From Acidimicrobiia bacterium (GTDB taxonomy: Bacteria > Actinomycetota > Acidimicrobiia > Acidimicrobiales > Aldehydirespiratoraceae): 64,000 nt of DNA. Below the pieces are notes generated by a model. The model ran no database searches, was not told where the DNA came from, and saw only the letters and a list, made by a program, of their open reading frames with translations. The first letter of the stretch is position 1. Each line of letters opens with the position of its first letter. Shown here one piece after another: positions 18,391-34,990 of the stretch. The position numbers were made by a program, and so were the translations under genes. The stretch spans positions 1-64,000 of the forward strand of contig JAJEEV010000030.1 of NCBI GenBank assembly GCA_022820805.1, read 5' to 3'.

Positions 18391-19337
18391 AGACCGTTGC
18401 ACCCATCGCGCTGATCGACCGCGTCGCCACCGCGCCCATCAGCTGGGGCGTGTGCGAGGTTCCGGGCTGGGGCTACCAGCTTCCCGTCGACCGGGTCCTG
18501 GCGGAGATGAGTGCCGCCGGCTTCACCCACACCGAGCTCGGTTCCTACGGCTACCTGCCGACTGAGCCCGCTGACCTGCAGGGCATCCTCGACAGCAACG
18601 GCCTGAGTCTTCTCGGCGGTTTCGTGCCGCTGGTCCTGCACGATCCGAGCCGGGCCGGGCCGGCTCGCGAGGCGGCCCGCCGGTGGGCCCGGCTGATCGC
18701 CGGCGGCGGCGGCCGGTTCTTCGTCACGTGTGCCGTCAGCCATACCGACGACTGGCGCCAGGAGCCTCTGGGCGACGCCGGCTGGGCGGTGCTGTGCGCC
18801 GCGCTGGCCGACATCGACGACATTGCCGAGTCGTACGGGTTGCAGCAGGTGTTCCACTCCCATTACGGGTCCCTGGTCGAGACCGACGCCGAACTGGAGC
18901 GGGTCCTGGCGGGCTCGGAGGTGTCGCTGGTGCTCGACACCGCCCACATCACCATCGGGGGAACCGACGTGGTGGAACTGTTGGATCGCTACGCGCCGCG
19001 GGTGGGCCTGGTCCATCTCAAGGACCTGGAGCCCTCGCTGGCGGCGCGTCTAAGGGCGGGAGAGCTGTCGCTGATGCAGGCTGTGCAGCGCGGCCTGTTC
19101 CCGCCGCTAGGTCGAGGAGGGGTGCCGATCGCGGAGATCGTCACCCGTCTCGAGGAATCAGGACGAGACCTCTGGTACGTCCTGGAGCAGGACGCGGCCA
19201 TCGCGGAGGGTGACCTCTCCGCGGTCGCCGGGCTCAGGCGCAACGCCGACCTGAGCCTGGAGTTCCTGCGCAGTCTGGTGCCCGCCGGAGCGGGCAGCGG
19301 AGCAACCCACAACAACCACCGATTCCCGGAGGGATAA
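18387..19337 (+). CDS. iolE: inosose dehydratase-like TIM-barrel protein (IolE/MocC family)
   Basis: Xylose-isomerase-like TIM barrel of the IolE/MocC family, expected to dehydrate 2-keto-myo-inositol (scyllo-inosose) to the diketone used by IolD. The N-terminal APISWGVCEVPGWGYQ stretch is an IolE hallmark; metal-ligand positions are plausible in FHSHYGSLVE, LVLDTAHI and LVHLKDLE. 316 residues. GTG start: an in-frame stop at 18354 leaves no earlier start. First gene of the operon divergent from the LacI regulator; the binding-protein gene follows 4 nt later. Confidence 0.87.
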   Translation: MKTVAPIALIDRVATAPISWGVCEVPGWGYQLPVDRVLAEMSAAGFTHTELGSYGYLPTEPADLQGILDSNGLSLLGGFVPLVLHDPSRAGPAREAARRWARLIAGGGGRFFVTCAVSHTDDWRQEPLGDAGWAVLCAALADIDDIAESYGLQQVFHSHYGSLVETDAELERVLAGSEVSLVLDTAHITIGGTDVVELLDRYAPRVGLVHLKDLEPSLAARLRAGELSLMQAVQRGLFPPLGRGGVPIAEIVTRLEESGRDLWYVLEQDAAIAEGDLSAVAGLRRNADLSLEFLRSLVPAGAGSGATHNNHRFPEG

Positions 19338-19341
19338 CCAA

Positions 19342-20406
19342 ATGTCAAGACTATTGAAGCTGCTCGGTGTGGTGCTCGCCATCACGCTCGTCGCCGCATC
19401 GTGCGGTGACGACGGCGACGATTCCACCCCCGAGCCGGCGGCCCCCGCCGAGGAGGCGCCGGCCGAGGAGGCCGCACCGGCCGACGACGAGGCCCCGGCA
19501 ACCACCGCGGCCGCGGCCGACGAGGTCGTCGAGACCCAGGGCTGCGACCACACGTTCCACGTGATCACCCACGGCGACTCCGGCGTGTTCTGGTCAGTGG
19601 TCGAGGTGGCCGTAGCCGACGCTGCCGACGCCATCGGCTGTGACGTCGTGTACTTCGGCTCCAACAACGATGCTCTGGCCCAGTCCCAGGAGATCGAGGC
19701 CGCCATCGCGTCGGGCTCTTCGGGCATCGCCATCTCCCTGGCCGACCCGGCGGGCGTCAGCGACGCCGCTGCCGCAGTCGTGGCCGCCGGCATCCCGCTG
19801 TACACCCTCAACTCGGGCGTGAACAACTACAAGGACCTCGGCGCGGTCACCCACGTCGGCCAGACCGAGGTAGTGGCCGGCAACGGCGCCGGCGAGCGCT
19901 TCAACGCGCTCGGCGCCACCCACATCCTGTGCGCCCGCCAGGAGCAGTCCAACGTGGCCCTCGAGGAGCGCTGCGACGGCCTGGCCGAGACCTTCAACGG
20001 CGACGTGACCTCGGAGTTCGTCGGTCTGGACGCCAACCCCGACGAGCAGCAGAACAGCATCGCCGCCATCCTGCAGGCCGATCCGTCGATCGACGGCGTG
20101 CTCGGTGTCGGCCCGAACCTGCCGCTGCGGGCTCTGGCCGCGGGCGAGCAGGCCGGGCGCGAGCTGGTCATCGGCGGCTTCGACCTGTCCGGCGACCTGA
20201 TCGACGCCATCGAGGCCGGCGACGTGGCCTTCACCGTCGACCAGCAGCAGTACCTGCAGGGCTACCTCCCGGTCGTCCTCATGTACCTGCAGGCCACCAA
20301 CCAGAACACCGCCGGCGGCGGTCTGCCCATCCTCACGGGCCCGGGCTTCGTGGACACCGCGAACGCCTCCGTCGTCAAGGCTCTGGTCCAGCAGGGGACC
20401 CGCTAA
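19342..20406 (+). CDS. sugar/inositol ABC substrate-binding lipoprotein
   Basis: Type-1 periplasmic binding protein of the ribose/xylose/inositol class, tethered to the outer face of the membrane. Lipobox LVAASC near residue 21, then an acidic Ala/Glu/Asp/Pro linker to about residue 65 and the binding domain (VIGGFDLSGDLIDAIEAGDVAFTVDQQ split across its C-lobe, QGYLPVVLMYLQ). ATG with GGAGGG 8 nt upstream. 354 residues. It feeds the permease and ATPase downstream; from the operon the ligand is probably an inositol or inositol derivative (the MocB role). Confidence 0.9.
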   Translation: MSRLLKLLGVVLAITLVAASCGDDGDDSTPEPAAPAEEAPAEEAAPADDEAPATTAAAADEVVETQGCDHTFHVITHGDSGVFWSVVEVAVADAADAIGCDVVYFGSNNDALAQSQEIEAAIASGSSGIAISLADPAGVSDAAAAVVAAGIPLYTLNSGVNNYKDLGAVTHVGQTEVVAGNGAGERFNALGATHILCARQEQSNVALEERCDGLAETFNGDVTSEFVGLDANPDEQQNSIAAILQADPSIDGVLGVGPNLPLRALAAGEQAGRELVIGGFDLSGDLIDAIEAGDVAFTVDQQQYLQGYLPVVLMYLQATNQNTAGGGLPILTGPGFVDTANASVVKALVQQGTR

Positions 20407-20503: not shown

Positions 20504-20575
20504 CGGGATCACACGTGTCGTCCGGTCGCCACGGAGTGGATGGCCGGCCAAGTCGACTAGCCGTTGGGGGATCGA

Positions 20576-22930
20576 ATGGCTGACACGATCAACGAGCAGT
20601 CCGCCGCAGCGGCCGATGCCGGCGGCGACGAACGCTTGGCCCACCGGGGGCCGATACAGACGCTGCTGACCCGGCCCGAGATCGGAGCCCTGCTGGGCGC
20701 CGTGGGCGTGTGGCTGCTGTTCTGGCTGGTGTCCGCCCCCTTCGGCACCGTGGGGGGCACCGCCAACTTCCTCGACGTCGCGGCTTACCTCGGGTTGATG
20801 GCCGTGCCCGTGGCGCTGCTGATGATCGGCGGAGAGTTCGACCTTTCTTCGGGCGCCATGACCGGCGCGACCGCGATCATCGCGATCCTGCTGGCCAACG
20901 ACATCAACGGGGCCGGCCTGGGACTCCATATCGCGGTGCCGCTGTCTCTGGCCTTCGCGCTGGCGATCGGCTGGTTCAACGGCACCCTGGTGGAGAAGAC
21001 GTCGCTGCCGAGCTTCATCGTGACCCTCGGCACCTTCTTCATGCTGATCGGAGCCAAGCTCGGCTTCTCCAAGCTGTTCACCAACAAGGTGCTCGTGGAG
21101 GGCCTCGACGAGGCCGAGGGCTACGACTTCTGGAACGGGATCTTCGGCGCCGAATGGCTCCGCAACTCCCACCTCTGGGACACCCGCAAGTGGTCCAACC
21201 TCTGGCTGGTGCGCGACGAGGTCTGGGCTCTGCTGCTCATGGGCGGCATCGCGGCCCTCATGATCGGCACCTTCGAGCTGACCTACGCCCGGCGCAAGTC
21301 GCCGAACGTGTTGGCAGGAGCCGTCGCGGCCGCGGGTGCGGTGCTGGCGCTGGTCGGCCTGATCTACCTGCTGGCCCAGGACGGCAGGACCTCGCAGTGG
21401 ATCGGAGGGATCCTCGTGTCCGCCGGCGTGCTGGCCGGCGTCGCCGGCTGGTGCCGCTGGCGATACGCGGCTCCCACCCGCGACGAGCGCGGCACCTCCC
21501 CGGGCTGGTGGCAGTACCTGGTGAGCGGCCTCGCGGCCGTGGTCGTCGCCATAGTGGTCGCCGCGGTCATGAACGCCTCGGACTCGTCGCAACTCGGCTT
21601 CCTGGGCGGCTCGTTCGGCAAGTTCGTGTTCGCGCTGGGGATCGCGCTGGTCGGGGTGCTGGCCGTGGTGGCCGCACTCGGGCGCATCACCCCCGGCTAT
21701 CCCGCCCTCGGGGCGGTGCTGGTGGCGCTCCCGTCGATCAGCTTCCTGATCACGGTGCAGGCCGCCCGCGTCATCCTCTTCGGCGGGCTGGCGCTGCTGG
21801 GGATCGCGTTGCTCTGGTCGAGCGCGCGCCGGGTGAAGCCTTCGGTCATGGTCTCGGGGGCCGTCTCGCTGGCGATCGTGGTGCTCGCGTTCTTCATCCA
21901 GTCGGAGGCGGCCTCGCGCAAGCTGCGGGTCGAGCTGTTCACGGTGCTGCTGCTGGTGGCGCTGCTGCTCGCCGCCTCCGCGGTGGCCCGCCATCTCAGC
22001 GCGGTCCGCACCGCCGCGCCCCCACCGCCGCAGTTCGGCCGGTGGATGCACGTCTGCGCCGCCCTGGGAGTGGCGGGCGTCGTCGTGTTCACCGTGGTCG
22101 AGCTCGCGGACGGTGACGCGATCCTCTACTCGCTGATCTCGGGCGCGGTGAAGGGCGGGATCCTGGCCTTCGTCGCCTACGCGCTGGGGACTCTGGGCCG
22201 CACCCTGCTGACCCGGGACGAGGGCGTCGGCCGGGCCCTGATCACCACGGGAATCGGGGCGGTGATGCTCAGCGTCGCCTCCCGGCTGCTGTTCGTGACG
22301 GGCAGCGAGCTGGACAAGATCTGCAACATCGGCACCGACGGCGAGCTCAGGTGCCCCCAGACCCAGTTCGGCGTGGTCGTGCTGTCGTTCCTGGTCTTCG
22401 CGGCTGTGGGTTCATGGCTGCTGATGCGCACGCAGTTCGGCAGCTGGATCATGGCCGTCGGCGGCAACAAGGAGGCGGCCCGCTCCGTCGGGGTGCCCGC
22501 GGCCCGGACCAAGACGACGTTGTTCATGATGGTCTCCGGAGCGGCCTGGATCACCGGCATGCTGATCGCGTTCCGGCTGACCGCGGTGCAGGCCGACGTG
22601 GGCGACGGCAACGAGTTCCGCTACATCATCGTCGCGGTGGTGGGCGGCAACCTGCTGACCGGCGGGTACGGGTCGGCTCTGGGCGCCGGCATCGGCGCGG
22701 TGATCTGGGGGATGATCTCCCAGGGAATCGGCTTCGCCCAATGGAACAGCGACTGGCGGTTCCTGGTCCTCGGCGCCCTGTTGCTGGTGGCGGTGATGGT
22801 CAACAACTACGTGCGGGGACGGGCCGAGAAGGCACCGACCACTTCGAGCGCCACCAGACCCGACAAGACCGAGATCACCATCGTCGTGCCCGCTGAACCG
22901 GCGGCGGGTGCAAAGGAGGGCCAGCAATGA
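20576..22930 (+). CDS. oversized ribose/xylose-type ABC permease
   Basis: Membrane subunit of a CUT2-type sugar transporter. The N-terminal part (to about residue 225) has the family core, including [15 protein letters not shown] and [13 protein letters not shown], and the C-terminal part (about 596-760) the rest, including [19 protein letters not shown] and [17 protein letters not shown]. Between them is a ~360-residue stretch of many additional hydrophobic segments, making 784 residues against the usual 330-420. ATG at 20576 with GGGGGA upstream is preferred to a TTG 12 nt earlier. Its stop overlaps the ATPase start as ATGA. Confidence 0.88.
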
Positions 22931-23712
22931 GCACCGACTTCCTTGAGCTGAGGGGTATCTCCAAGTTCTACGGCAACATCATCGCCCTGACCGGAGTCAC
23001 CACAACGGTGAACCCCGGCGAGGTCACGTGCGTGCTCGGCGACAACGGCGCGGGCAAGTCCACCTTCATCAAGATCCTGGCCGGCGTGCACCAGCACGAC
23101 GAGGGCGAGCTGATCCTCGAGGGCTCCAAGGTCCGGTTCGCGCATCCACGGCAGGCCCTGGCCGCCGGCATCGCCACCGTCTACCAGGACCTGGCGATGG
23201 TGCCTCTCATGTCGGTCTGGCGGAACTTCTTCCTGGGCCAGGAGCCCAAGAAGGGCATGTGGCCCTTCCGGCAGATCGACATCGACGAGGCCAAGCGGAT
23301 CGCCAAGGAGGAGATGGCCAAGATGGGCATCGACATCCGCGACACCGAGCAGAGCGTCGGCACGCTCTCCGGCGGCGAGCGCCAGTCGGTGGCCATCGCC
23401 AGGGCCAGCTACTTCGGGGCCCGTGTCCTGATCCTCGACGAGCCCACCTCCGCGCTGGGCGTGAAGCAGTCCGGCGTGGTGCTGCGCCGCATCGTCGAGG
23501 CCCGCGACCAGGGTCTGGCCGTGATCTTCATCACCCACAATCCCAACCACGCCTATCCGGTCGGCGACCGGTTCGTGATTCTGCAGCGGGGCGTGTCGCT
23601 GGGCAACTGGGCCAAGGAGGAGCTGACGCAGGCCGAGCTCACCCAGCTGATGGCCGGCGGCGCCGAGCTGGAGGAGCTGCAGCACGAGCTGGCCGAGGCC
23701 AGCGCGAACTGA
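22927..23712 (+). CDS. sugar ABC transporter ATPase (single domain)
   Basis: ATPase subunit of the inositol/sugar importer. Walker [10 protein letters not shown] near residue 38, signature LSGGERQS near 148, Walker [14 protein letters not shown] near 168, and switch His in FITHNPNHA. At 261 residues it has one nucleotide-binding domain, like XylG-type short ATPases of actinobacteria and unlike the double-domain RbsA. The ATGA overlap with the permease couples their translation. Confidence 0.94.
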
Positions 23713-23779: not shown

Positions 23780-24745
23780 ATGACTGGACTCGAGTTGCTC
23801 ACGGTCGGGCGGGTGAGCGTCGACCTGTACCCGCAGCAGAGCGGCGTGCCGCTCAGCGGGGTGCAGTCGTTCGCGAAGTCGATCGGGGGTTCGCCCACCA
23901 ACGTGGCTGTGGCCGCGGCACGGCTGGGCCGCCGGGCCGCGGTGGTAACCAGGGTGGGGGACGACGGGTTCGGCGAGTACATCCGCGACGCCCTCGCCGA
24001 CCAGTTCGGGGTGGTCAACGACTACGTCTCGGTCGATCCCGACCTGCGCACCGCCCTCGCGTTCTGTGCCCTCGATCCGCCGACTGATCCGCCCCTGCTG
24101 TTCTACCGGGAGCCGCGCGGACCGGAGATGAACCTCACCATCGCAGACATTCCCGACGTGGCCTACACCGTCGGTGTGCTGTGGGTCACCGGGTCGCGCT
24201 TCGCTCAGGAGCCGTCCCGCTCGGCGGTGACGACTCTGCTGGAGCGCCGGGCCCGGGCCGAGCACACGGTGCTGGACCTCGACTACCGGGAGAGCTTCTG
24301 GTCGTCGCCGGCCGAGGCGTCCGAGCACATCGGCGCGGCCGTCGACCACGCCACCGTGGCCGTCGGCAACCGCACCGAGTGCGAGATCGCGGTCGGTTCC
24401 TCCGATCCCGACACCGCCGCCGACCGGCTGCTGGAGCGGGGTGTGTCGCTGGCGGTGGTCAAGATGGGGGCAGACGGCGTGCTGGTCGCCACGGCCGACA
24501 GCCGCGGCGCGGTAGCGCCGGTGCCGGTCGAGGTGGTGTGCGGGCTCGGCGCGGGAGACGCCTTCGGCGGCGCGCTGGCCGACGGGCTGCTGGCCGGCCT
24601 CGATCCCGCCGAGATGGTCACCAGGGCCAATGCGGCGGGCGCAATCGTGGCCGGCCGCTTGACGTGCTCCGACGCCATGCCCACCGCGGCCGAGATCGAC
24701 GCGGTGCTCGCGGGAGCCCCGCCGGCCGAGGCCGACGCCGCATGA
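23780..24745 (+). CDS. iolC: 5-dehydro-2-deoxygluconokinase (IolC)
   Basis: PfkB-family kinase phosphorylating 5-keto-2-deoxygluconate in inositol breakdown. The opening LLTVGRVSVDLYPQQ and GGSPTNVAVAAARLGRRAA, then FYREPRGPEMNL, match the IolC branch; the catalytic Asp is in CGLGAGDAFGGALADGL. 321 residues, without the C-terminal DUF2090 aldolase-like domain that some IolC proteins carry. About 67 nt after the ATPase gene; the stop overlaps the next ATG as ATGA. Confidence 0.93.
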   Translation: MTGLELLTVGRVSVDLYPQQSGVPLSGVQSFAKSIGGSPTNVAVAAARLGRRAAVVTRVGDDGFGEYIRDALADQFGVVNDYVSVDPDLRTALAFCALDPPTDPPLLFYREPRGPEMNLTIADIPDVAYTVGVLWVTGSRFAQEPSRSAVTTLLERRARAEHTVLDLDYRESFWSSPAEASEHIGAAVDHATVAVGNRTECEIAVGSSDPDTAADRLLERGVSLAVVKMGADGVLVATADSRGAVAPVPVEVVCGLGAGDAFGGALADGLLAGLDPAEMVTRANAAGAIVAGRLTCSDAMPTAAEIDAVLAGAPPAEADAA

Positions 24746-25698
24746 GCACCGCCGCGCCCTGGCTCGTGTGGGTCGATCGCCGGCCGTCGCCGGAGGTCAC
24801 CGTCCCCGACGGCATCGAGTTGACCGACGACCTGTCCGCCGCCGACGGAGCGGTGGTCGGCGCGCAGGACTCCTGGGACGCAGCCGCCTGCCGGCGCCTG
24901 CCGAGGCTCAAGGTGGTGGCCCGGGCCGGGATCGGCTACGACAACGTGGAGGTGGCCGAGTGCGCCGCCGCCGGCGTGGCCGCGTGCAACGCGCCCGACG
25001 CGCCCACCGTGTCCACCGCCGAGCACGCCCTGGCCCTGCTGCTGGCGGTGTCCAAGCGGGTCAAGCCGTCCGAGCGGCGGCTCCAGGGCGGTCTCGGCGA
25101 CTACCGGGCCACCCACCGGGCCCTGGAGTTGGACGGCCGGACGCTGGGACTGCTCGGATGCGGGCGCATCGGCAGCCGCGTGGCCCGCTACGGGGCCGCC
25201 CTCGGCATGATCGTCCTGGTGCACGATCCGTACCTCGACCCGGCCAAGGCCCGAGAGGTGGGCGAGCCGGTGCCGCTCGACGAGCTCTGGCGCCGCAGCG
25301 ACGCGGTGTCGCTGCACGCGCCCGCCACCGACGCCACCCGCCGCATCGTCGACGCCGGTGCCATCGCGGCCATGAGGCCGGGCGTGATCATCGTCAACTG
25401 CGCCCGGGGATCGCTGATCGACCAGGACGCGCTGCTCGCGGGGCTGGAGTCGGGCCACATCGCGGGCGCCGGCCTAGACGTGACCGAGCCCGAGCCCCTG
25501 CCGGAGGGACATCCGCTGCTCGGGCGTGACGATGTGATCGTCACCCCGCATGTGGCCTCGTCGACCACCGCCGGGACGGTCCGGCTGCTCGACCAGGCAT
25601 TGGGCCAGGCGGCCGAGTGGCTGGGCGGCGGGACCCCCGAGCACCTGCTGGACCCGACCGCGGCCGATCCCGCCGTGGACCGCCGGAGGATCCCATGA
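24742..25698 (+). CDS. D-isomer 2-hydroxyacid dehydrogenase (CtBP/PGDH-like)
   Basis: NAD-dependent 2-hydroxyacid dehydrogenase of 318 residues. Rossmann motif LLGCGRIGSRVA near residue 139, catalytic Arg in NCARGSLID, Glu in DVTEPEP and His in VTPHVAS. The ATG at 24742 overlaps the iolC stop (ATGA); the longer open frame upstream is out of phase inside iolC. Such enzymes are not part of the standard iol pathway, so this may handle a side-chain acid or a keto intermediate of a modified inositol; the substrate is unknown. Confidence 0.88.
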   Translation: MSTAAPWLVWVDRRPSPEVTVPDGIELTDDLSAADGAVVGAQDSWDAAACRRLPRLKVVARAGIGYDNVEVAECAAAGVAACNAPDAPTVSTAEHALALLLAVSKRVKPSERRLQGGLGDYRATHRALELDGRTLGLLGCGRIGSRVARYGAALGMIVLVHDPYLDPAKAREVGEPVPLDELWRRSDAVSLHAPATDATRRIVDAGAIAAMRPGVIIVNCARGSLIDQDALLAGLESGHIAGAGLDVTEPEPLPEGHPLLGRDDVIVTPHVASSTTAGTVRLLDQALGQAAEWLGGGTPEHLLDPTAADPAVDRRRIP

Positions 25699-25756
25699 GA
25701 TCGCACCCAGCCGTATTGCGGGCATCCGCTCGCCCGACCCCGTTGCGCCGGAGACC

Positions 25757-26935
25757 ATGATGAGCAAGAAGCGACGTCTCGGTGTGGCCGTGATCGGCTT
25801 CGGCTGGATGGGCCAGGCCCACGCCCGGTCCTACGCCCGGCTGCCCATGATCTTCGACGGCCTGGGGTACCGGGCCGAGCTCGCGGTGTGCGCCGACACC
25901 CTGGAGGAGCGCCGCGCCGTCGCGTTGAACGACTTCGGCTTCCGTGAGGCCACCGACGACTGGCGGGCCGCGGTGGACCGTCCCGACGTGGACGTGGTCG
26001 CCATCTGCGCGCCCAACATGATGCACTGCGAGATGATCGAGGCCGCCGCCGCGGCCGGCAAGCACGTCTTCTGCGAGAAGCCGGTAGGGGGCACTCCCGC
26101 CCAGACGGCCCGGGCCGAGAAGGCCTGCCGAGACGCCGGGGTGATAACCGGCGTCGGCTACAACTACCGCTTCGTGCCGCTCGTGCAGCACGCCCGCAAC
26201 CTGATCGAGGCCGGCGACCTCGGCGAGATAACCAACTACCGGGGCCGCTTCTTCTCCATGTACGGCGCCGACCCCCTCGGCCTGCTCAGCTGGCGCTTCC
26301 GGCTCGAGCAGGCCGGGCACGGCGTGTCCACCGACATCCTCAGCCACGCCGTGGACCTGGCCATGATGATCAACGGCCCCATCACGAGGGTGGTCGGCAC
26401 CGGCGAGACGTTCATCAAGGAGCGGCCCCTGCCGTCGGCGTCGGGCACCCACTACGACCGGGGCGGGCCTGACGACCCGGTGGGCGTGGTCACCAACGAG
26501 GACTACTTCGGCGCGATGGCGGTGTTCGCCAACGGCAGCCGGGGCACCTTCGAGACGAGCCGCACCATGGTGGGGCCCCAGAGCCAGCTGGCCTTCGACA
26601 TCCACGGCACCGGCGGCGCGCTCAGCTGGAACTTCGAGACCATGAACGAGATGCGCCTGTTCAGGCTCATCGAGGGCGACAAGGGCTACACCACCGTCTA
26701 CGCCGGAGAGCGCCACCCGTACCATGCCGGCTTCGTTCCCGGCGAGGCCAACTCGATCGGCTTCGAGGACGTGGTGACCATCCAGGACCACGAGTTTCTG
26801 GCCGCGGTGGCCGAGGGCCGGCCCCACTCGGCGGGGATGGAGCAGGCTCTGGCGTACGTGAGCGTGCAGGCGGCGTTGCTGCGAAGCTGGGAGACGGGCT
26901 CATGGACCGACGTGGTGTCGGTGCGGATCGACTGA
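25757..26935 (+). CDS. Gfo/Idh/MocA oxidoreductase (MocA/scyllo-inositol type)
   Basis: NAD(P)-dependent dehydrogenase of the Gfo/Idh/MocA family, about 392 residues. N-terminal VAVIGFGWMGQAHARSY, the conserved Lys in CEKPVGGT, and the substrate-side pair in GHGVSTDILSHAVDLAMM. In the rhizopine system MocA oxidises scyllo-inosamine-type substrates, and IolX/IolW act on scyllo-inositol; this copy differs from the shorter IolG copy 5 kb downstream and may handle a second stereoisomer or amino/methoxy derivative. Two adjacent ATGs (25757, 25760); GGAG lies 6 nt before the second, which may be the true start. Confidence 0.88.
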   Translation: MMSKKRRLGVAVIGFGWMGQAHARSYARLPMIFDGLGYRAELAVCADTLEERRAVALNDFGFREATDDWRAAVDRPDVDVVAICAPNMMHCEMIEAAAAAGKHVFCEKPVGGTPAQTARAEKACRDAGVITGVGYNYRFVPLVQHARNLIEAGDLGEITNYRGRFFSMYGADPLGLLSWRFRLEQAGHGVSTDILSHAVDLAMMINGPITRVVGTGETFIKERPLPSASGTHYDRGGPDDPVGVVTNEDYFGAMAVFANGSRGTFETSRTMVGPQSQLAFDIHGTGGALSWNFETMNEMRLFRLIEGDKGYTTVYAGERHPYHAGFVPGEANSIGFEDVVTIQDHEFLAAVAEGRPHSAGMEQALAYVSVQAALLRSWETGSWTDVVSVRID

Positions 26936-26969: not shown

Positions 26970-28850
26970 ATGGACACCATCAGGCTGACCGCAGCGGGAG
27001 CGGTTGTGCGATACCTGGCCGCTCAGCGCATCGAGGTCGACGGCGACATAGTGCCGCTGTTCGCGGGGGTGTTCGCCATATTCGGCCACGGCAACGTCAC
27101 CTGCCTGGGCCACGAGCTCGAGCAGGCTCAGGACGCGCTGCCCACCTGGAGGGGCCAGAACGAGCAGGGGATGGCTCTGGCCGCCTGCGGGTTCGCCCGG
27201 GCGTCCAAGCGGCGCCGGATCATGGTGGCGGCCAGCTCGATCGGGCCCGGGGCCACCAACATGGTGACCGCCGCCGCGGTGGCCATGGCCAACCGGCTGC
27301 CGCTGCTGGTGCTCTCGGGCGACACCTTCGAGCATCGTGTCGTGGATCCGGTGCTCCAGCAGGTCGAGCACTTCGGGGCGCCCGCCACCACCGTCAACGA
27401 CTCCTTCCGGGCCGTGGTGCGCTACTGGGACCGGATCACCGCCCCCGAGCAGGTCGTGCAGTCGCTGCCCCACGCCCTCAACACCATGCTCGACCCCGGC
27501 GACTGCGGCCCGGCGTTCATCGCGCTGCCCCAGGACGTTCAGGCCCAGGCCTACGACTACCCGGTGCGGTTGTTCGACGAGACCCTGCACCGCATCCGTC
27601 GGCCCCGACCCGACGCGGGCGAGCTTCAGCGGGCCGCAGCCGCTCTGGTCGCCGCCGAACGGCCCCTGCTGATCGCGGGCGGGGGAGTCCGCTGGTCGTT
27701 GGCCGAGCAGCAGCTGGCCGCCTTCGCCGAGGCCCACGGCATACCGGTGGTCGAGACCACCGCGGGACGGACCTCGCTTCCGGCCCACCATCCGCTCAAC
27801 TGCGGCCCGATCGGCGTGACCGGGTGCACGTCGGCCAACGCCATGGCCGCGGACGCCGATGTGGTGCTGGCGGTGGGCACGAGGATGCAGGACTTCACCA
27901 CCGGCTCCTGGACGGTGTTCGGTGACGAGTCGGCCCGCATCGTCGGGCTGAACGCGGCCCGCTTCGACGCCACCAAGCACATGTGCCTGCCGCTGGTGGC
28001 CGACGCCCGCGAGGGGCTGATCGAGCTGGGCGCGGCTCTCGACAGCTACCGGGCCGGCGCCGATTGGACGGCCCGGGCTGCCTCCGAGACGGCCCAGTAC
28101 CACGCCTACATCGACAAGATCGCCGCTCCGGTGGCGGTCGGCACCGACGCGGGCGGCGGGTCCCCGGACCCCTACGCCGACCTGCCCACCTACGCGCAGG
28201 TGGTCGGTGCGGTCGACCGGGCCGCGGACGACTCGACCTACGTGGTGGCCGCCGCGGGCGGTCTGCCCGGGGAGCTGGTCAACGGGTGGCGGGCCAGCGC
28301 GGTGCACTCTTTCGACTGCGAGTACGGGTACTCGTGCATGGGATATGAGATCGCCGGCGCCTGGGGGGCCAAGATGGCCATGCCCGAGCGCGAGGTGATG
28401 GTGCTGGTGGGCGACGGGTCCTACCTGATGATGAACAGCGACCTCTACAGCACGGTCATCACCGGTCACAAGCTGATCGTGATCGTCTGCGACAACGGCG
28501 GCTACGCGGTGATCGACCGCCTCCAGGTGAACCAGGGCGGAGCGTCGTTCAACAACCTGTTCGCGGACTGCCGCACCGAGCGGCTCGTCGATGTCGACTT
28601 CGCGGCCCACGCGGCCTCGATGGGCTGCATGACCGAGACGGTGGGCACCATCTCCGAGCTCGAGGCGGCCATCGAGCGGGCCCGGGACGCGGATCGCACC
28701 TACGTGATCGCCCTCAAGACCCATCCCCACAGCTGGACCGAAGGAGGCTCCTTCTGGGAGGTCGGGGTGCCCGAGGTGAGCGCCAGCGAGTCGGTGAGGG
28801 CAGCCCGCGAGGCCATGGACGCGGGCCGGGCCAACCAGAGAGTGTGGTGA
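26970..28850 (+). CDS. iolD: trihydroxycyclohexane-1,2-dione hydrolase (IolD)
   Basis: Thiamine-diphosphate enzyme that opens the inositol-derived diketone ring to 5-deoxyglucuronate. 626 residues, the IolD length. The ThDP-activating Glu is in RGQNEQGMA near residue 70; FAGVFAIFGHGNVTCLG and the C-terminal ThDP motif VGDGSYLMMNSDLYS followed by CDNGGY are characteristic. GGGGAGG lies upstream of the ATG. The stop overlaps the GTG of the SDR gene. Confidence 0.95.
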   Translation: MDTIRLTAAGAVVRYLAAQRIEVDGDIVPLFAGVFAIFGHGNVTCLGHELEQAQDALPTWRGQNEQGMALAACGFARASKRRRIMVAASSIGPGATNMVTAAAVAMANRLPLLVLSGDTFEHRVVDPVLQQVEHFGAPATTVNDSFRAVVRYWDRITAPEQVVQSLPHALNTMLDPGDCGPAFIALPQDVQAQAYDYPVRLFDETLHRIRRPRPDAGELQRAAAALVAAERPLLIAGGGVRWSLAEQQLAAFAEAHGIPVVETTAGRTSLPAHHPLNCGPIGVTGCTSANAMAADADVVLAVGTRMQDFTTGSWTVFGDESARIVGLNAARFDATKHMCLPLVADAREGLIELGAALDSYRAGADWTARAASETAQYHAYIDKIAAPVAVGTDAGGGSPDPYADLPTYAQVVGAVDRAADDSTYVVAAAGGLPGELVNGWRASAVHSFDCEYGYSCMGYEIAGAWGAKMAMPEREVMVLVGDGSYLMMNSDLYSTVITGHKLIVIVCDNGGYAVIDRLQVNQGGASFNNLFADCRTERLVDVDFAAHAASMGCMTETVGTISELEAAIERARDADRTYVIALKTHPHSWTEGGSFWEVGVPEVSASESVRAAREAMDAGRANQRVW

Positions 28851-29713
28851 CGGTGGGACCGCCCATGGGGCAATCGGCGCCGGCCTTCGCCGGCGGCATC
28901 GCATTGATCACCGGCGGATCCCAGGGACTCGGCTACGCGGTGGGGGAGCGCCTGGTCGCCGAAGGGGCCGGGGGGCTGCTGCTGGTGGGCCGCGACCGCG
29001 AAAAGGGCGAGGCGGCGGCGGCCTCGCTGGCCACCAGCGGTTGCCGGGTGGAGTTCGCGGCCGCCGACCTGGCCGATGCCGACGGCTGCAACCGGGTCCT
29101 GGAGGCTCTCGATGAGGCCTTCGGCACCTGCCACAGCTTCGTCAACTGCGCGGCCATCACCGATCGGGGCACGGTGTGGGACACCACGCCCGAGTTGTGG
29201 GACGCCATGCTGGCCGTGAACGTGCGGGCGCCGGGCCTGCTCAGCCAGGGCGTGGCCGCGATCATGGCCCGCGAGTCCGTCGAGGGGGCCATCGTGTTGA
29301 TCGGCTCGATCGCCGGGCGGGGCGGCCCGCCCAAGCTGCTGCCCTATGCCACCTCCAAGGGGGCGCTGGTGGCCATGACCCGCAATCTGGCCTTCGCCCT
29401 CATGCGGCACCGGATCCGGGTGAACCTGCTCTGCCCGGGGTGGATGGACACGCCCGCCGAGGATGTCGTGCAGCGCACCTTCGACGGCGCCGCCGACGGC
29501 TGGCTGGAGCGGGCCGAGGCCGAGATGCCCTTCGGGCGGCTGATCAAGCCGCCCGAGATTGCCCGCACCATCGTGCATCTGGCCACCGCAGACTCCGGGA
29601 TGATGACCGGCGCGGTGGTGGAGTGGGACCAGACGGTGCTGGGCGCGGGCGACTCCGTCTTCCCGGCGCCGGAGCTGGGTCAGTGGCCGCCCGATGCCGG
29701 GAGCGGTCCGTGA
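28847..29713 (+). CDS. SDR-family oxidoreductase
   Basis: Short-chain dehydrogenase/reductase of about 288 residues with cofactor motif TGGSQGLG near residues 24-31, the structural Asn-Cys-Ala-Ala motif (FVNCAAIT), the catalytic Ser in LIGSIAG and YATSK further on. The GTG overlapping the iolD stop is taken as the start; an ATG 18 nt later is possible. The substrate is not evident; in this operon it may oxidise a polyol or a demethylated inositol. The stop overlaps the next GTG (GTGA). Confidence 0.88.
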   Translation: MTVGPPMGQSAPAFAGGIALITGGSQGLGYAVGERLVAEGAGGLLLVGRDREKGEAAAASLATSGCRVEFAAADLADADGCNRVLEALDEAFGTCHSFVNCAAITDRGTVWDTTPELWDAMLAVNVRAPGLLSQGVAAIMARESVEGAIVLIGSIAGRGGPPKLLPYATSKGALVAMTRNLAFALMRHRIRVNLLCPGWMDTPAEDVVQRTFDGAADGWLERAEAEMPFGRLIKPPEIARTIVHLATADSGMMTGAVVEWDQTVLGAGDSVFPAPELGQWPPDAGSGP

Positions 29714-31176
29714 CCGCGGCCGTGCGTGACTACGGCCTCACCGGGTCAGACTCGCTGCTGGCGGTGGAGCGGGGACTGGTGGAGGCCGAGTGGTTCCGAC
29801 CGCCCATCGACCCCGAGCGGCTTCGGGCCCTCCAGGCGCGGACCAACGCCCGGGCGGCCCGCGACACCATCCTGTGGCTCGGGCTTCTGGCCGTGTTCGG
29901 CTATCTGGCCTTCCAGACGCTGGGGAGCTGGTGGGCGGTGCCGGCGTTCATGGCCTACGGCGCGCTCTACGGCGGGGCCGGCGACTCCCGCTGGCACGAG
30001 TGCGGCCACGGCACCGCGTTCCGCACCAGGTGGCTCAACGATGTCGTCTACTACGTCGCGTCGTTCATGCTGCTGCGCCAACCGACCCTGTGGCGCTGGT
30101 CCCATGTTCGCCACCACACCGACACGATCGTGGTGGGCCGCGATCCCGAGATCATGTTCCCCCGACCGTCGTCGCTGCGCCGGGTGCTCGGCGTGTACCT
30201 GCCGGTGGCGATCCTGCCGAAGGCGGTGTGGCGCACCCTCAAGCACGCCGCGGGCCGCGTCGACGCCGACGCCCGCGACTTCATCCCCGAAGACGAGCTG
30301 CCCAAGCTCAAGTGGGAGTCGCGGGCCTACATCACGGTGCTGGGCGGCACCGCGGTCTGGTGCATCGCCATCGGCTCGATCGTCCCGGCGCTGTACATCG
30401 GGCTGCCCACTTTCTACGGGGCCTGGCTCATGGTGTTCTTCGGGGCCATGCAGCACGCCGGACTGCGCGAGGACGTGCTCGACCATCGCTACAACTCCCG
30501 CACCGTGTACATGAACCCGATCCTGCGGTTCCTGTACTCCAACATGAACTACCACGTCGAGCACCACATCTTCCCGACGGTGCCGTACTACGCCCTGCCC
30601 GCTCTCCACGAGGAGATCAAGGAGCATCTGGCCCCGCCGGACCGGTCCACGATCAGCGCCTACCGGCGGATCTTCGCGACGCTGCGCCGCCAGTGGCGCG
30701 ACCCGTCCTACGACGATCCCCGTCCCGACGTTCCCGACGTCTCCGGCGCAGACCGGTCGTTCGTGAACACCGGGCTCACCGCATGGGCCGGGGACGTGCA
30801 CGACGGGCTGGTCGATCTCGGGCCGGCCGAGGGTCTGGCCCCCAACTCGGCCCGCCGCGTCGACCACGGCAACGCCACCTATGCCCTGTTCCGGCTCGAT
30901 CCCGACGACCTGGCCGGAAGTGACGAGGCCGTGAACGCCGAGGCCGCCTCCGGCTTCGTGCTCAGCGACGGGCTGTGCACCCACGGCCAGGCCCATCTGG
31001 CCGAGGGCGCGGTGCTCGACGGCCTGATCGAGTGCCCCAAGCACAACGGGTGCTTCGACCTGTGCACGGGCGAAGCGCTGCGATACCCGGCCACCGAGCC
31101 GATCACCCTTTACGACGTGGCTGTGCGCAACGGTCGTGTCGTGTCGCGCTTCGTGCCGCAGGAACCCGACGCGTGA
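29710..31176 (+). CDS. MocD-MocE-like fusion: desaturase-family oxygenase with C-terminal Rieske domain
   Basis: 488-residue fusion. The N-terminal part is a membrane-type di-iron fatty-acid-desaturase-family protein with the three His boxes: HECGH (residues 96-100), HVRHH (132-136) and HVEHH (282-286), plus hydrophobic segments between them. The C-terminal ~100 residues form a Rieske [2Fe-2S] domain with C423-T-H425 and C442-P-K-H445, 16 residues between the pairs. In rhizopine (3-O-methyl-scyllo-inosamine) catabolism MocD is a desaturase-family oxygenase and MocE a separate Rieske ferredoxin; here both are one chain in an inositol operon. I infer O-demethylation of a methoxy-inositol. No MocF-type reductase is seen. 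GTGA overlaps at both ends. Confidence 0.85.
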   Translation: MTAAVRDYGLTGSDSLLAVERGLVEAEWFRPPIDPERLRALQARTNARAARDTILWLGLLAVFGYLAFQTLGSWWAVPAFMAYGALYGGAGDSRWHECGHGTAFRTRWLNDVVYYVASFMLLRQPTLWRWSHVRHHTDTIVVGRDPEIMFPRPSSLRRVLGVYLPVAILPKAVWRTLKHAAGRVDADARDFIPEDELPKLKWESRAYITVLGGTAVWCIAIGSIVPALYIGLPTFYGAWLMVFFGAMQHAGLREDVLDHRYNSRTVYMNPILRFLYSNMNYHVEHHIFPTVPYYALPALHEEIKEHLAPPDRSTISAYRRIFATLRRQWRDPSYDDPRPDVPDVSGADRSFVNTGLTAWAGDVHDGLVDLGPAEGLAPNSARRVDHGNATYALFRLDPDDLAGSDEAVNAEAASGFVLSDGLCTHGQAHLAEGAVLDGLIECPKHNGCFDLCTGEALRYPATEPITLYDVAVRNGRVVSRFVPQEPDA

Positions 31177-32183
31177 ACAGTCCTGTCCGTATCGGCCTGC
31201 TGGGCTGCGGGCGGATCGGCTCGATGCATGCCGAGCTGCTGGCGCGGCGGGTGCCCGACGCGGCCCTCACCGCAGTGCACGACCTGATGGGCGACTCGGC
31301 GGCCCGCGTGGCTGCGGCGTTCGGGGCCCGCCGGGCGGCCAGCACCGCTGAGCTGATCGAGGCCGACGACGTCGACGCGGTGGCCATCTGCAGCTCGACC
31401 GACACCCACATCGACCTACTGATGGAGGTAGCCGCCGCCGGCAAGCCGGCCTTCGTGGAGAAGCCTCTGTCGCTGGACCTGGCCGAGGTGGACCGGGGAA
31501 TCGCGGCCGCGAACGCGGCCGGGATCGACGTCCAGGTCGGGTTCAACCGCCGCTTCGACGCGGCTCACCGCCATGTGCGCGACCGGGTGGCCGCGGGCGA
31601 TGTCGGCGAGGTGCACTTGGTGCGCATCTCCAGCCGCGACCCGGATCCACCGCCGCTCTCCTACATCGAGGTCTCCGGCGGCATCTTCTGCGACATGACC
31701 ATCCACGACTTCGACATGGCCCGCTTCGTGACCGGAAGCGAGGCGGTCGAGGTTTACGCCACCGGGGCGGTACGGGTCGATCCGGCCATCGGTGAGGCCG
31801 GGGACCTGGACACCGCGGTGGTGGTGGTGACCCACGCCAACGGAGCGATAACCACCATCGACAACAGCCGGCGGGCGGTGTACGGCTACGACCAGCGGTT
31901 GGAGGCGTTCGGGTCGGCCGGGATGGCGGCCTCGGACAACCCGACCTCGGCCACGGCCCGCTACTGGGACACCGACGGGCCCCACGGCAGGCCGCTCCCG
32001 TACTTCTTCCTGGATCGCTACATCCCGTCGTATGAGGCTGAGTGGGACGCGTTCGTGGCCATGGTGCGGGGGGCTCCGTCGCCGGTGACCCTGGCCGACG
32101 GGCGGGCGCCGCTGGTGATGGGTCTGGCCGCGTGGGCCTCGGTCCGCGAGGGCCGCCCGGTAGCCGTCGCGGAGATCGGCTGA
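31173..32183 (+). CDS. iolG: inositol 2-dehydrogenase (IolG, Gfo/Idh/MocA family)
   Basis: NAD-dependent oxidation of myo-inositol to scyllo-inosose, the substrate of IolE. 336 residues, the IolG length. N-terminal IGLLGCGRIGSMHAELL, catalytic Lys in VEKPLSLD, and the signature CDMTIHDFDMARF with the Asp/His pair. GTG start overlaps the stop of the fusion gene (GTGA). The RmlD-like gene starts 5 nt after its stop. Confidence 0.93.
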   Translation: MNSPVRIGLLGCGRIGSMHAELLARRVPDAALTAVHDLMGDSAARVAAAFGARRAASTAELIEADDVDAVAICSSTDTHIDLLMEVAAAGKPAFVEKPLSLDLAEVDRGIAAANAAGIDVQVGFNRRFDAAHRHVRDRVAAGDVGEVHLVRISSRDPDPPPLSYIEVSGGIFCDMTIHDFDMARFVTGSEAVEVYATGAVRVDPAIGEAGDLDTAVVVVTHANGAITTIDNSRRAVYGYDQRLEAFGSAGMAASDNPTSATARYWDTDGPHGRPLPYFFLDRYIPSYEAEWDAFVAMVRGAPSPVTLADGRAPLVMGLAAWASVREGRPVAVAEIG

Positions 32184-32188
32184 CCGGC

Positions 32189-33157
32189 ATGCGCGCCTAT
32201 GTGACCGGCGGAACCGGCTTCGTCGGATCGAACATCGTCAAGGTGTTCTCCGAACGCCACGGCGCCACCGTGCACTGCCCGGTCCACCGGTTCGTTCCGG
32301 CCGGCACGCCCGGCTTCAGCACCGAGCGCCTGGACCTTCTCGACGACGGGGCCGTTCAGGCCAGCGTGGACGAATTCGACCCCGACGTGATCGTGCACTC
32401 GATGATCCTCAACGACTTCGCCGCCATGTACACCGACCGGGACCTGGCCTGGCGCAGCTACGTCGGCACCACCGAGAGCCTGGCCCGGGCCGCCGACCGC
32501 GCTGAGGCCAAGCTGATCCTGGTGTCGACCGACTGGGTGTTCGACGGCACCCAGCCCGGCGCCGACGAGGACACCCCGCCCAACCCGGTGAACCTCTACG
32601 GCGTGCTCAAGATGGCCAGCGAGCGGACCGCCCTGCTGAGCGCGGAGCGGGCCGCGGTGGCCCGGGTGTCGGCGGTGAGCGGCATGCACTGGCTGCGGGA
32701 CTCCACGCCCCGTGTGCAGGACGGCGGCTTCGGCTACCTCGTCACCTCGATCGTGGAGGCCCTCGAGGCCGGCGAGGCGTTCGCGGTCTGGGAGGCCGAC
32801 AACATCAACATGGTGGCCAGCCCGTCGCTGGCCAGCGAGTGCGCCGAGGTGATCTGGCGGATCGCGGCCGACGCATCGGCCACCGGGGTCTTCCACTGCT
32901 GCGGCGCCGATTCTGTGGGCCGCATGGAGCTGGCCCGCTTGGCCTGCGAGGTGTTCGATCTCGACGTGGCGATGCTGGCCTCGACGGCTCCCGACACCGG
33001 CGCGACGGGCGCGGTGGGGGAGTTCCCCATCCCGTACGACACCAGCCTCGCCGTGCGGCGCACACGGGAGGTCCTCAACTACGAGCCGCCGGGCGTCCGG
33101 GAGCTGCTCGCCCGGTTCCGCACCGAGCGGTCCACCGGCGACCTGGCGGGCCGTTGA
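32189..33157 (+). CDS. RmlD-like NAD(P)-dependent reductase/epimerase
   Basis: Extended SDR of 322 residues similar in pattern to dTDP-4-dehydrorhamnose reductase: TGGTGFVGSNI at residues 6-16, VSTDWVFDGTQPGADED with the catalytic Thr, and YGVLKMASE with the Tyr-x3-Lys pair. RmlD-like proteins are not part of the canonical inositol pathway; this one may reduce or epimerise a ring ketone, giving access to other inositol stereoisomers. ATG 5 nt after the iolG stop. Confidence 0.85.
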   Translation: MRAYVTGGTGFVGSNIVKVFSERHGATVHCPVHRFVPAGTPGFSTERLDLLDDGAVQASVDEFDPDVIVHSMILNDFAAMYTDRDLAWRSYVGTTESLARAADRAEAKLILVSTDWVFDGTQPGADEDTPPNPVNLYGVLKMASERTALLSAERAAVARVSAVSGMHWLRDSTPRVQDGGFGYLVTSIVEALEAGEAFAVWEADNINMVASPSLASECAEVIWRIAADASATGVFHCCGADSVGRMELARLACEVFDLDVAMLASTAPDTGATGAVGEFPIPYDTSLAVRRTREVLNYEPPGVRELLARFRTERSTGDLAGR

Positions 33158-33197: not shown

Positions 33198-33255
33198 CCA
33201 GAATCTTGGAGCGATTTACCCGCGCATGCGACCGGTTTCCCACCCGAGATTCTGG
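33198..33255 (+). promoter_or_regulatory. inverted repeat before iolB
   Basis: CCAGAATCT (33198-33206) and its perfect complement AGATTCTGG (33247-33255) flank 40 nt. A competing smaller hairpin, CTCCA/TGGAG, overlaps the left arm. Located in the only sizeable gap late in the operon, so it may be an attenuator or processing site. Confidence 0.35.
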
Positions 33256-33278
33256 TGCTCGACAGAGGAGGCAGTCCT

Positions 33279-34142
33279 ATGAGCAGTTCGTCGCTGATCC
33301 GCCCGGTCCCCGGCCCGGGACGGATCCTGCACGTCACCCCCGAGTCCGCGGGCTGGGACAACGTCGAGTTCGGGGTGGTCGAGGTGACCGCCGACGCGCC
33401 GTGGACCGGGATCCAGGCCGACCGCGAGACGGCTGTCGTGCCGCTGGCCGGCGCGGGCCGGGTGATCGTCGGCGACGGCGACATGGAGGTCGAACTGAGC
33501 CGGGAGTCGGTGTTCACCGAGATGGCCCGGATCGTGTACCTGCCGCCCGGGACGCCCTTCCGGATCGAGTCCGGGTCGGGCCTGCAGGCGTCGGTCGGCT
33601 CGGCTCCGGCCGAGGGCCGCTACCCGGTGCGGGTGTTCGAGCCCTCCGAGATGCGCATCGAGATCCGGGGCGGCGGGCAGGCCTACCGCCAGGTGGTCCA
33701 CTCGCTGTCGCATCCTCTCCCCGCGGAGCGCCTGATCCTCTACGAGGTGTACGTGCCCCGGGGCACCTGGTCGGGCTGGCCGCCGCACTGCCACGACGGC
33801 CGCGACGGATCGCCCTACCTGGAGGATGTGTACTACTTCCGTCTGGACCGGCCCGAGGGCTATGCCATGCATCGCAACTGGCGTGACGACGAGCGCTACG
33901 ACGACGCCATGGTCGTCACCGACGGCGACGTGGCGCTGGTGCCCAAGGGCTACCACACGTCGGTGGCCTGCCCGGGCTCGAACATGTACTTCCTGAACTA
34001 TCTGGCCGGGGAGCTCACCGACGATGATCGCCGCACACCGCCGTGCTTCATGGCCGAGCACACCTGGATCGAGGCCGACTGGACGGCGGGGGAGTGGGGC
34101 CTGCCGGTGGTGACCCCCGGCGGCCCACGAGCACGCTCGTGA
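33279..34142 (+). CDS. iolB: 5-deoxy-glucuronate isomerase (IolB)
   Basis: Cupin-fold isomerase converting 5-deoxyglucuronate to 5-keto-2-deoxygluconate. About 287 residues. The metal-binding cluster is WPPHCHDG followed by YLEDVYYFR, and the later His in KGYHTSVACPG completes it. The ATG at 33279 is chosen because GAGGAGG lies 7-8 nt upstream; the open frame starts 24 nt earlier. The stop overlaps the aldolase GTG (GTGA). Confidence 0.94.
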   Translation: MSSSSLIRPVPGPGRILHVTPESAGWDNVEFGVVEVTADAPWTGIQADRETAVVPLAGAGRVIVGDGDMEVELSRESVFTEMARIVYLPPGTPFRIESGSGLQASVGSAPAEGRYPVRVFEPSEMRIEIRGGGQAYRQVVHSLSHPLPAERLILYEVYVPRGTWSGWPPHCHDGRDGSPYLEDVYYFRLDRPEGYAMHRNWRDDERYDDAMVVTDGDVALVPKGYHTSVACPGSNMYFLNYLAGELTDDDRRTPPCFMAEHTWIEADWTAGEWGLPVVTPGGPRARS

Positions 34143-34990
34143 GCCTGGACGGGATATCCGACGGCGGGCGCTTCGGGGTGCTCGCCATCGACCATCGGGA
34201 CTCGATGCGGGCGGTGCTGGCGCCACGAGATCCCGGTTCGGTGAGCGCCGCCGACATCACCGACCTCAAGCGGGAACTGGTCGGCGCTCTGGCCGGCGGG
34301 GCCACCGGCGTGATGCTCGAGCCCGAGTACTCGATCCCCCAGCTCCTCGACGGCACCCTGCCCGCAGGTGTGGGCTTCACCGCCGCGCTGGAGGCTCAGG
34401 GCTACGCGTCCGACCCCGAGGCGGCGCCCACCGAGATCCTGGAGGGCTGGTCGGTGCAGGCCGCGGCCGACTCCGGGGCGTCCGCGGCCAAGCTGCTGGT
34501 GTTCTACCGCCCCGACCGCCCCGGCCACGCCGCGGCCCAGGAGCGGGTGGCCGGCGAGATCCTCGCCGAGTGCCGCCGGGTGGGGATCCCCCTTGTGCTG
34601 GAGCCGCTGTTCTACGGCCTGGACGACCCGTCGGCCCGCCGGGGTCTGGTGACCGAGACCGTCGAGCGCTTCGCGGCCATGGACCCCCACCTGCTGAAGC
34701 TGCCGTTCCCGGTGGAGGCGGCCCACGAGCCCGACCGTGCGGTGTGGGCCGCGGCCTGCTCGGAGATCGCCGAGCGGTGCCACATGCCGTGGACGCTGCT
34801 GTCGGGTGGCGGCGGCTACGAGTCGTACCGCGACCAGGTGGAGTCGGCGGTGGCGGCCGGCTGCTCGGGGTTCATGGCCGGGCGGGCTCTGTGGGGCGAG
34901 GCGGTCCTGGCCCCGCCGGCCGACCGGGCCCGGATCATCGCCGATGTGGTAGCCCCCCGCCTTGCCGAGCTGCGCACCATCGTCGGCTGA
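34139..34990 (+). CDS. LacD/tagatose-bisphosphate aldolase-like protein
   Basis: Class I aldolase-type TIM barrel of 283 residues with the LacD-like opening FGVLAIDHRDSMR, a Schiff-base-type Lys in AAKLLVFYRP, and the C-terminal LLSGGGGYESY and GFMAGRALWGE phosphate-binding loops. Coupled by GTGA to iolB as the last gene of the operon, it most likely replaces IolJ and cleaves 2-deoxy-5-ketogluconate-6-phosphate to dihydroxyacetone phosphate and malonate semialdehyde. This is inference from family and position. Confidence 0.83.
   Translation: MSLDGISDGGRFGVLAIDHRDSMRAVLAPRDPGSVSAADITDLKRELVGALAGGATGVMLEPEYSIPQLLDGTLPAGVGFTAALEAQGYASDPEAAPTEILEGWSVQAAADSGASAAKLLVFYRPDRPGHAAAQERVAGEILAECRRVGIPLVLEPLFYGLDDPSARRGLVTETVERFAAMDPHLLKLPFPVEAAHEPDRAVWAAACSEIAERCHMPWTLLSGGGGYESYRDQVESAVAAGCSGFMAGRALWGEAVLAPPADRARIIADVVAPRLAELRTIVG

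Follow-up and report, generated by a model that had tools for sequence, protein, structure and literature searches.

The closest described counterparts of the gene considered here come from rhizopine catabolism in rhizobia, for which a demethylation system, MocDEF, was reportedly described by Bahar and colleagues in 1998. As far as the accessible portions of other papers go, rhizobial rhizopine catabolism involves mocDEF (PMC10107442), MocD is the oxygenase that turns 3-O-methyl-scyllo-inosamine into scyllo-inosamine (PMC2593844), S. meliloti 1021 carries a LacI-desaturase-MocE-reductase arrangement with genes named mocD, mocE, and mocF (PMC11387232), and P. syringae has mocDEF-like genes without other moc genes, whose role is left open with aromatic compounds as one option (PMC5132102); the "MoCF" of PMC2964644, in the portion available, denotes molybdenum cofactor and is irrelevant to mocDEF. 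The present analysis concerns a gene in the first 64,000 nucleotides (the window) of contig JAJEEV010000030.1 from an Acidimicrobiia bacterium (GCA_022820805.1), in which a membrane desaturase-type oxygenase and a Rieske ferredoxin are joined in one chain inside an inositol catabolism (iol) operon. With modest confidence, the product is regarded as a MocD-kind membrane oxidative demethylase of some O-methyl-inositol, equipped with a built-in Rieske ferredoxin, because of the function given for MocD in the available part of PMC2593844 together with the inositol operon.

Like rhizobial MocDEF, the window locus combines a desaturase-family oxygenase with a MocE-type Rieske ferredoxin and is tied to inositol catabolism; unlike it, the locus has one chain rather than two, no reductase in the operon, a Rieske half under the MocE cut-off, and a LacI-family regulator in place of MocR. 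The LacI-type operons of Rhizobium and Sinorhizobium (S. meliloti 1021 SM_b20817-20820) encode an oxygenase that is 48% identical to the window's oxygenase half over 333 residues, but they consist of separate genes, include their own reductase and a PanB-like gene, and mostly have no iol genes in the stretch. CarAc and the naphthalene dioxygenase ferredoxin share sequence and fold with the window's Rieske half, although these ferredoxins are separate proteins whereas the window's is fused to a desaturase-family oxygenase. Aromatic-dioxygenase ferredoxins are separate soluble carriers that serve a Rieske oxygenase. Finally, triple fusions from Verrucomicrobiota, Acidobacteriota, Bacteroidota, Kiritimatiellota, and Chloroflexota contain the two halves in the window's order at 43-46% identity, yet differ by an extra C-terminal FAD/NAD reductase, a clade of their own, and a lack of iol genes. 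No account of a fused MocD-MocE protein or of an Acidimicrobiia O-methyl-inositol demethylase was recognised in the open-licence literature, which was covered mainly through titles and abstract openings; the parts are known, and the joined form in an iol setting and the separate fusions appear to be new.

A fused oxygenase-ferredoxin gene in an inositol operon

The fused gene is a single stop-free open reading frame (ORF) on the plus strand, translated into 488 residues, of which residues 73-309 match FA_desaturase PF00487 (135.3 bits; curated Pfam cut-off, 29.7) and residues 413-468 match Rieske PF00355 (36.8 bits; cut-off, 20.3). The three histidine boxes (HECGH 96-100, HVRHH 132-136, and HVEHH 282-286) and the Rieske ligands (CxH...CxxH; C423/H425 and C442/H445) lie in one chain exactly where an earlier note, made from the DNA letters, had placed them, and none of the 53 aligned chains departs from the box histidines or the four ligands (for triple fusions, only the first two domains were aligned; L008, L056, and the second copy at L067 were left out; L, G, and C numbers are handles for loci, genomes, and contigs). 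The 4-bp GTGA overlaps claimed in the same note, with an SDR gene on one side and iolG on the other, are both present in the DNA. The reading frame stays open upstream (ORF from 29176, 666 residues), and the GTG at 29710 is the favoured start, judging by where the alignments of the nearest homologues begin. An AlphaFold model of the fused protein, built with 53 sequences, reached a predicted local distance difference test score of 85.1 and a predicted template modelling (TM) score of 0.84, with weak segments at 348-359 and 403-411; its Rieske domain resembles ferredoxins of dioxygenases, CarAc among them (TM to target, 0.82-0.93), and its oxygenase half was matched, among the best 50 of 365 matches, only by the chloroplast FtsHi-complex chains 8xks and 8xqw (TM to target, 0.55).

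Linkage to inositol genes is tight in the clade to which the window protein belongs, in agreement with the earlier note's placing of the fusion in an inositol operon. A locus was called iol-positive when at least one of IolD, IolC, IolB, and IolG was present in the fetched stretch, covering at least half the reference protein at 40% identity or above (55% for IolG). By this measure, iol genes are present at 27 of the 37 fused loci in the Acidimicrobiia clade (the window, L002, L006-L035, L070, L102-L104, and L106, with L100 excluded as a copy of L012). Among the 35 unfused loci, one of which (L111) is truncated by a contig end, three are positive (L078, L089, and L133, which extends L108), and none of the 20 triple-fusion loci is. 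Fisher p values serve as a rough guide here because the loci are related. In much of the Acidimicrobiia clade, the fused gene adjoins IolD/SDR and IolG genes. The possibility, raised in the earlier note, that the fusion occurs mostly outside inositol operons thus holds only if all fused forms are lumped (27 of 59 loci, none at the Caldilineaceae locus L067 or the Verrucomicrobia locus L081), and not within the clade. Whole genomes point the same way: of 296 Acidimicrobiia genomes, 13 contain a match at E 1e-60, nine of which were counted as fused (in G242, the match is in two pieces at contig ends), and IolD, found in 46 of the 296 at E 1e-100 (43 of them exceeding the cut-off), occurs in eight of the nine fused genomes (Fisher p 1.6e-6, relatedness ignored) and, at the level of genera, in 6/6 fused genera compared with 31/149.

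The surrounding genes are listed in Table 1. The iolG, iolD, iolC, and iolB products all exceed curated NCBIfam cut-offs, whereas the IolE-like protein falls under the IolE cut-off and is either an IolE that has diverged or some other isomerase of the TIM-barrel type. Strand and spacing suggest that the plus-strand run from the IolE-like gene to the aldolase gene is one transcript.

Table 1. Features of the window around the fused gene (scores in bits, with curated cut-offs where given).
Feature	Position	Strand	Remarks
LacI-family regulator, divergent from operon	17179..18207	-	profile match
iolE-like TIM barrel	18387..19337	+	TIGR04379 152.6, under cut-off 290
Periplasmic binding protein	19342..20406	+	Peripla_BP_4
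ABC transporter permease	20564..22930	+	BPD_transp_2; start uncertain
ABC transporter ATPase, sugar type	22927..23712	+	profile match
iolC kinase	23780..24745	+	TIGR04382 333.7 > 300
2-hydroxyacid dehydrogenase	24181..25698	+	called ORF; probably starts well downstream, domain matches beginning at residue 213
Gfo/Idh oxidoreductase, levoglucosan-dehydrogenase-like	25550..26935	+	293.4, cut-off 650; start uncertain, domain from about residue 75
iolD	26970..28850	+	TIGR04377 847.5 > 715
SDR dehydrogenase	28844..29713	+	NF004847 337.1 > 240; 4-bp overlap with fused gene
Fused gene: membrane desaturase-type oxygenase (putative di-iron) and C-terminal Rieske ferredoxin	29710..31176	+	488 residues
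Oxygenase half	29710..30744	+	residues 1-345; Pfam match 73-309; His boxes at 96, 132, 282
Rieske ferredoxin half	30808..31176	+	from about residue 367; ligands C423, H425, C442, H445
iolG, inositol 2-dehydrogenase	31173..32183	+	TIGR04380 397.2 > 355; 4-bp overlap with fused gene
RmlD/epimerase-like reductase	32042..33157	+	domain begins near 32189
iolB	33255..34142	+	TIGR04378 223.5 > 205
DeoC/LacD-type aldolase	34043..34990	+	profile match

Distribution and relatives of the fused form

The fusion recurs in other genomes. In a set of 81 loci, comprising L002 (the second copy in the same genome) and the best 80 of at least 586 confirmed relatives from a contig scan, 54 read through both halves and 27 are interrupted by a stop between the two genes; the 54 comprise 32 loci of one clade, 20 with a third, reductase-like domain, one from Caldilineaceae, and one from Verrucomicrobia. 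Members of the 32-locus clade are Acidimicrobiia, or are labelled just Actinomycetota or "bacterium", and are mostly metagenome bins. The fusion is also found on large contigs (L014 in a 3.8-Mb record and G157 in a 5.0-Mb contig), and an assembly artefact or a chance fusion was ruled out on the strength of these copies and the 54 open loci. The window's own genome contains a second fused copy, 76% identical (G000:C25:14095-15531; L002/L090), that is flanked by a macro-domain gene and an NAD-synthase gene with no iol genes nearby. The Caldilineaceae locus (L067:8001-10495) consists of two tandem oxygenase-Rieske copies that fall outside the other fused clades, and the Verrucomicrobia locus (L081) is a two-domain fusion. 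The fused form therefore extends beyond the inositol operon and beyond the phylum, given these two loci and the 20 triple fusions in other phyla.

Phylogenetic analysis of the oxygenase half employed a main tree of 80 rows, from which 18 near-duplicates and seven other PF00487 rows were left out, and a quick tree that held all 105 rows (support given as bootstrap/Shimodaira-Hasegawa approximate likelihood-ratio test). The 34 rows of fused proteins from the Acidimicrobiia clade group together (100/99) and join four unfused rows of the class at 100/98 (L063, L109, L110, and L111, the last cut by a contig end); the triple fusions form a clade (100/100) within which the two-domain L081 also falls; the Caldilineaceae pair is separate (100/99); and the rhizobial and related separate genes make up a clade of 16 (100/93) that includes L108 of Acidimicrobiia. 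The two-domain label needs three changes on the 80-row tree, as forced by starred branches, which speaks against a single origin of the fusion, but such changes do not distinguish gain from loss; three separate joinings are the simplest reading of a tree that in itself cannot separate joining from splitting.

The window oxygenase belongs to the same family as MocD-annotated oxygenases (annotated copies having been compared rather than the biochemically studied MocD) and has its own clade within it. The earlier note had asked whether this half might cluster with lipid desaturases; in the 105-row tree, seven other PF00487 proteins (three from this genome and four from R. pisi, their own functions not established) lie outside the family on very long branches, with their exact place unsure, and the DesB, CrtR, and DesA models score 48.5 of 500, 34.6 of 475, and 27.6 of 500, respectively, far under their cut-offs. 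Along with the identity to the rhizobial copy, these results argue against such clustering. For the Rieske half, TIGR02377 (MocE) is the best NCBIfam match, at a score under the model's cut-off; over 80 residues, this half shares 44% identity with the genome's separate MocE. The description of the protein as MocD-like plus MocE-like is supported. In a tree of the Rieske half addressing its co-inheritance with the oxygenase (98 rows, with 101 columns too few for a decision), no starred set includes the window row.

Two further observations concern the unfused relatives. At L133 (G123:C15), from another family of the class, a separate oxygenase, MocE, and reductase lie inside an iol cluster, and the grouping of this oxygenase with the rhizobial clade hints at transfer. 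A PanB-like gene is repeatedly found close to the oxygenase, both in rhizobial operons and in three iol operons of Acidimicrobiia (L026, L027, L028, L059, L064, L078, L086, L087, L091, and others; PF02548 in L026, L059, and L091, the three scanned), and its product might use formaldehyde or methylene-tetrahydrofolate arising from demethylation.

Electron supply and substrate

In the proposed mechanism, the fused protein would comprise a membrane-bound di-iron monooxygenase and a Rieske [2Fe-2S] ferredoxin in one chain. Electrons from NAD(P)H would reach the Rieske cluster through a ferredoxin reductase encoded elsewhere and would pass, within the same chain, to the di-iron site, which would hydroxylate the methyl carbon of an O-methyl-inositol; the hemiacetal would collapse to formaldehyde and free inositol, the latter being degraded by the neighbouring dehydrogenases, IolG, the IolE-like dehydratase, IolD, IolB, IolC, and the aldolase, while the formaldehyde could be oxidised by the genome's mycothiol-dependent dehydrogenase.

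The genome encodes candidates for the partner proteins. The reductase (MocF) described as missing in the earlier note is indeed absent locally, as no flavoprotein ferredoxin reductase was found by Pfam or NCBIfam among the 22 distinct window ORFs scanned, but three Reductase_C flavoproteins elsewhere in the genome are candidate reductases, and a Reductase_C flavoprotein occurs in seven of the nine fused genomes. A mycothiol-dependent formaldehyde dehydrogenase is also encoded (666.4 bits; cut-off, 512.9). Two of the three Reductase_C genes are on contigs C10 and C7 (G000; L091 and L092), the ends of which share an overlap of 141 identical bases. Taken together, the two contigs look like one split MocD/E/F-like locus containing genes for a Gfo/Idh protein, a separate oxygenase (47%), a PanB-like protein, a GntR-like regulator, a reductase, a binding protein, a permease, an ATPase, MocE (146.7 bits, over the TIGR02377 cut-off), a second reductase, and a Gfo protein, with the GntR-like and binding proteins assigned by reading the sequence alone. 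The split and fused kinds thus both occur in one genome. As a separate observation, a "sterol desaturase family" protein replaces the MocD-like oxygenase near MocE at L088, L115, and L116 (S. meliloti pSymA and Shinella and Fuscovulum plasmids), and a MocF-like reductase is also near MocE in L088 and L115.

Several points weigh against O-methyl-inositol demethylation. Ten of the 37 fused loci are without iol genes, including the second copy in this genome, and although some of these stretches are short (L010, L031, and L032, with L018 and L034 short downstream), roughly 8 kb or more is available to either side of L021, L023, L025, L033, and L090. One fused genome, G031, contains no IolD match, and it and G008 contain no Reductase_C protein, so another kind of reductase would have to operate in these two if the proposed function is right. 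The Rieske half scores only 71.6 bits against TIGR02377, under the curated cut-off of 136.15. Genes for mycothiol-dependent formaldehyde dehydrogenase are common, the close relatives with separate genes in rhizobia mostly lack iol genes in the stretch, and linkage to iol genes suits any oxidation of an inositol derivative, not just demethylation. No biochemistry of any fused member was found in the open-licence literature. Lastly, 37 of the 46 genomes with IolD have no relative of the fused protein at E 1e-60, which places the fused gene outside the core inositol pathway; it is an accessory gene, as expected for the entry step of special substrates.

Desaturase-fold enzymes are known to hydroxylate, desaturate, and demethylate, and this range, along with an equally good fit to the iol linkage, keeps in contention an unlikely alternative, namely that the protein hydroxylates an inositol derivative, e.g., a deoxy-inositol (quercitol type) or C-methyl-inositol, and so supplies the same pathway with an inositol or inosose. 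The extra dehydrogenases of the operon (SDR, Gfo/Idh, RmlD-like, and 2-hydroxyacid) suggest handling beyond plain myo-inositol and agree with such a role, whereas the sole described function of a relative, in the part of PMC2593844 available, is demethylation of a methoxy-cyclitol. Decidedly less probable is an O-methyl sugar or glycoside substrate that merely shares its transporter and dehydrogenases with inositol, a view encouraged by triple fusions beside genes for a rhamnose transporter or isomerase and rhamnosidase-like, GH141-like, and GH2 proteins, and by the separate-gene rhizobial operons, which lie beside TIM-barrel isomerase, LacI, and PanB-like genes; against it stand the position of the window gene between overlapping SDR and iolG genes and the presence of IolD/SDR and IolG genes next to the fused gene in much of the clade.

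The earlier note had put forward rhizopine (3-O-methyl-scyllo-inosamine) or an O-methyl-inositol as the substrate, and the rhizopine part of that proposal, although it draws on the MocD- and MocE-like halves and the inositol operon, now appears highly improbable: the regulator is of the LacI family, no aminotransferase or MocR was found among the operon ORFs scanned, and no moc-box pair was found in the window at up to three mismatches (a 70% G+C genome of another phylum need not keep such boxes), while the clade consists of Acidimicrobiia and other Actinomycetota. The comparison with rhizobia was itself constrained, as a true rhizopine mocDEF was not located among the genome collections searched; in six rhizobial stretches, the best moc-box pair matched 17 of 22 positions and none clearly stood out, and R. 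pisi DSM 30132, the same type strain as CECT 4113 of the PMC10107442 study, contains one MocE over the cut-off and no moc-box pair within three mismatches (against 2 and 3 for the reversed control pattern). There is a very slight chance that a lipid or carotenoid desaturase or hydroxylase sits in the operon by accident; membership of PF00487 and the weak DesB, CrtR, and DesA matches would allow it, but those scores are far too low, the operon setting is conserved, and the other PF00487 proteins fall outside the family. Slighter still is the chance of an aromatic or hydrocarbon substrate, an option raised for P. syringae mocDEF in the accessible part of PMC5132102 and echoed by the likeness of the Rieske half to aromatic dioxygenase ferredoxins, since the operon encodes the breakdown of inositol rather than aromatic compounds and ferredoxins of this type serve many oxygenases. 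Demethylation of an O-methyl-inositol remains the preferred function.

Triple fusions and the wider family

The 20 triple fusions (L037, L039, L042-L046, L048, L050, L052, L055-L057, L061, L075, L076, L079, and L083-L085) have an oxygenase-Rieske-reductase order, and most are near 760 residues. Pfam confirmed an oxygenase-Rieske-NAD-binding make-up in L044 and L050, the two scanned, and the other 18 were assigned from the length of the open frame together with a tblastn match to the L044 reductase part. A neighbour scan covered 20 chosen proteins, 19 of them from triple-fusion loci, with two of the 20 lacking a family match. RhaT is present in the stretches of L039, L075, and L079, with a partial match in L052, and RhaA lies near the triple fusions of L055 and, at a distance of about 6 kb, L056, so that RhaT or RhaA is found at six of the 20 loci, counting L052. 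The neighbours of L044 include an alpha-L-rhamnosidase-like gene and a GH141-like gene, and GH2 genes (L039), aldose epimerases (L045 and L075), and TIM-barrel genes also occur in triple-fusion stretches. In addition, a URO-D-family gene shares a stretch with the fused gene at L028, L045, L076, and L085 (PF01208 in L045, the one scanned).

These neighbours suggest that the family may demethylate methylated sugars and cyclitols. More tentatively, as a view that is possible rather than probable, MocD-type oxygenases would constitute a broad family, so far unrecognised, of di-iron membrane enzymes that O-demethylate methylated cyclitols and deoxysugars. A Rieske domain would have been joined to them on three lines, one in the iol operons of Acidimicrobiia, one in Caldilineaceae, and one in a Verrucomicrobiota-Acidobacteriota-Bacteroidota clade that would have gained a flavin reductase to give a self-sufficient 760-residue enzyme, at some loci beside rhamnose or glycosidase genes.

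Plants and algae commonly contain methylated inositols and sugars, and the removal of methyl ethers by bacteria is poorly known outside aromatic compounds. The one-chain oxygenase-ferredoxin of the inositol operon provides a ready candidate for methyl-ether removal in Acidimicrobiia, and its triple-fusion relatives may need no partner proteins, which would make the idea of a MocD-family demethylase directly testable.

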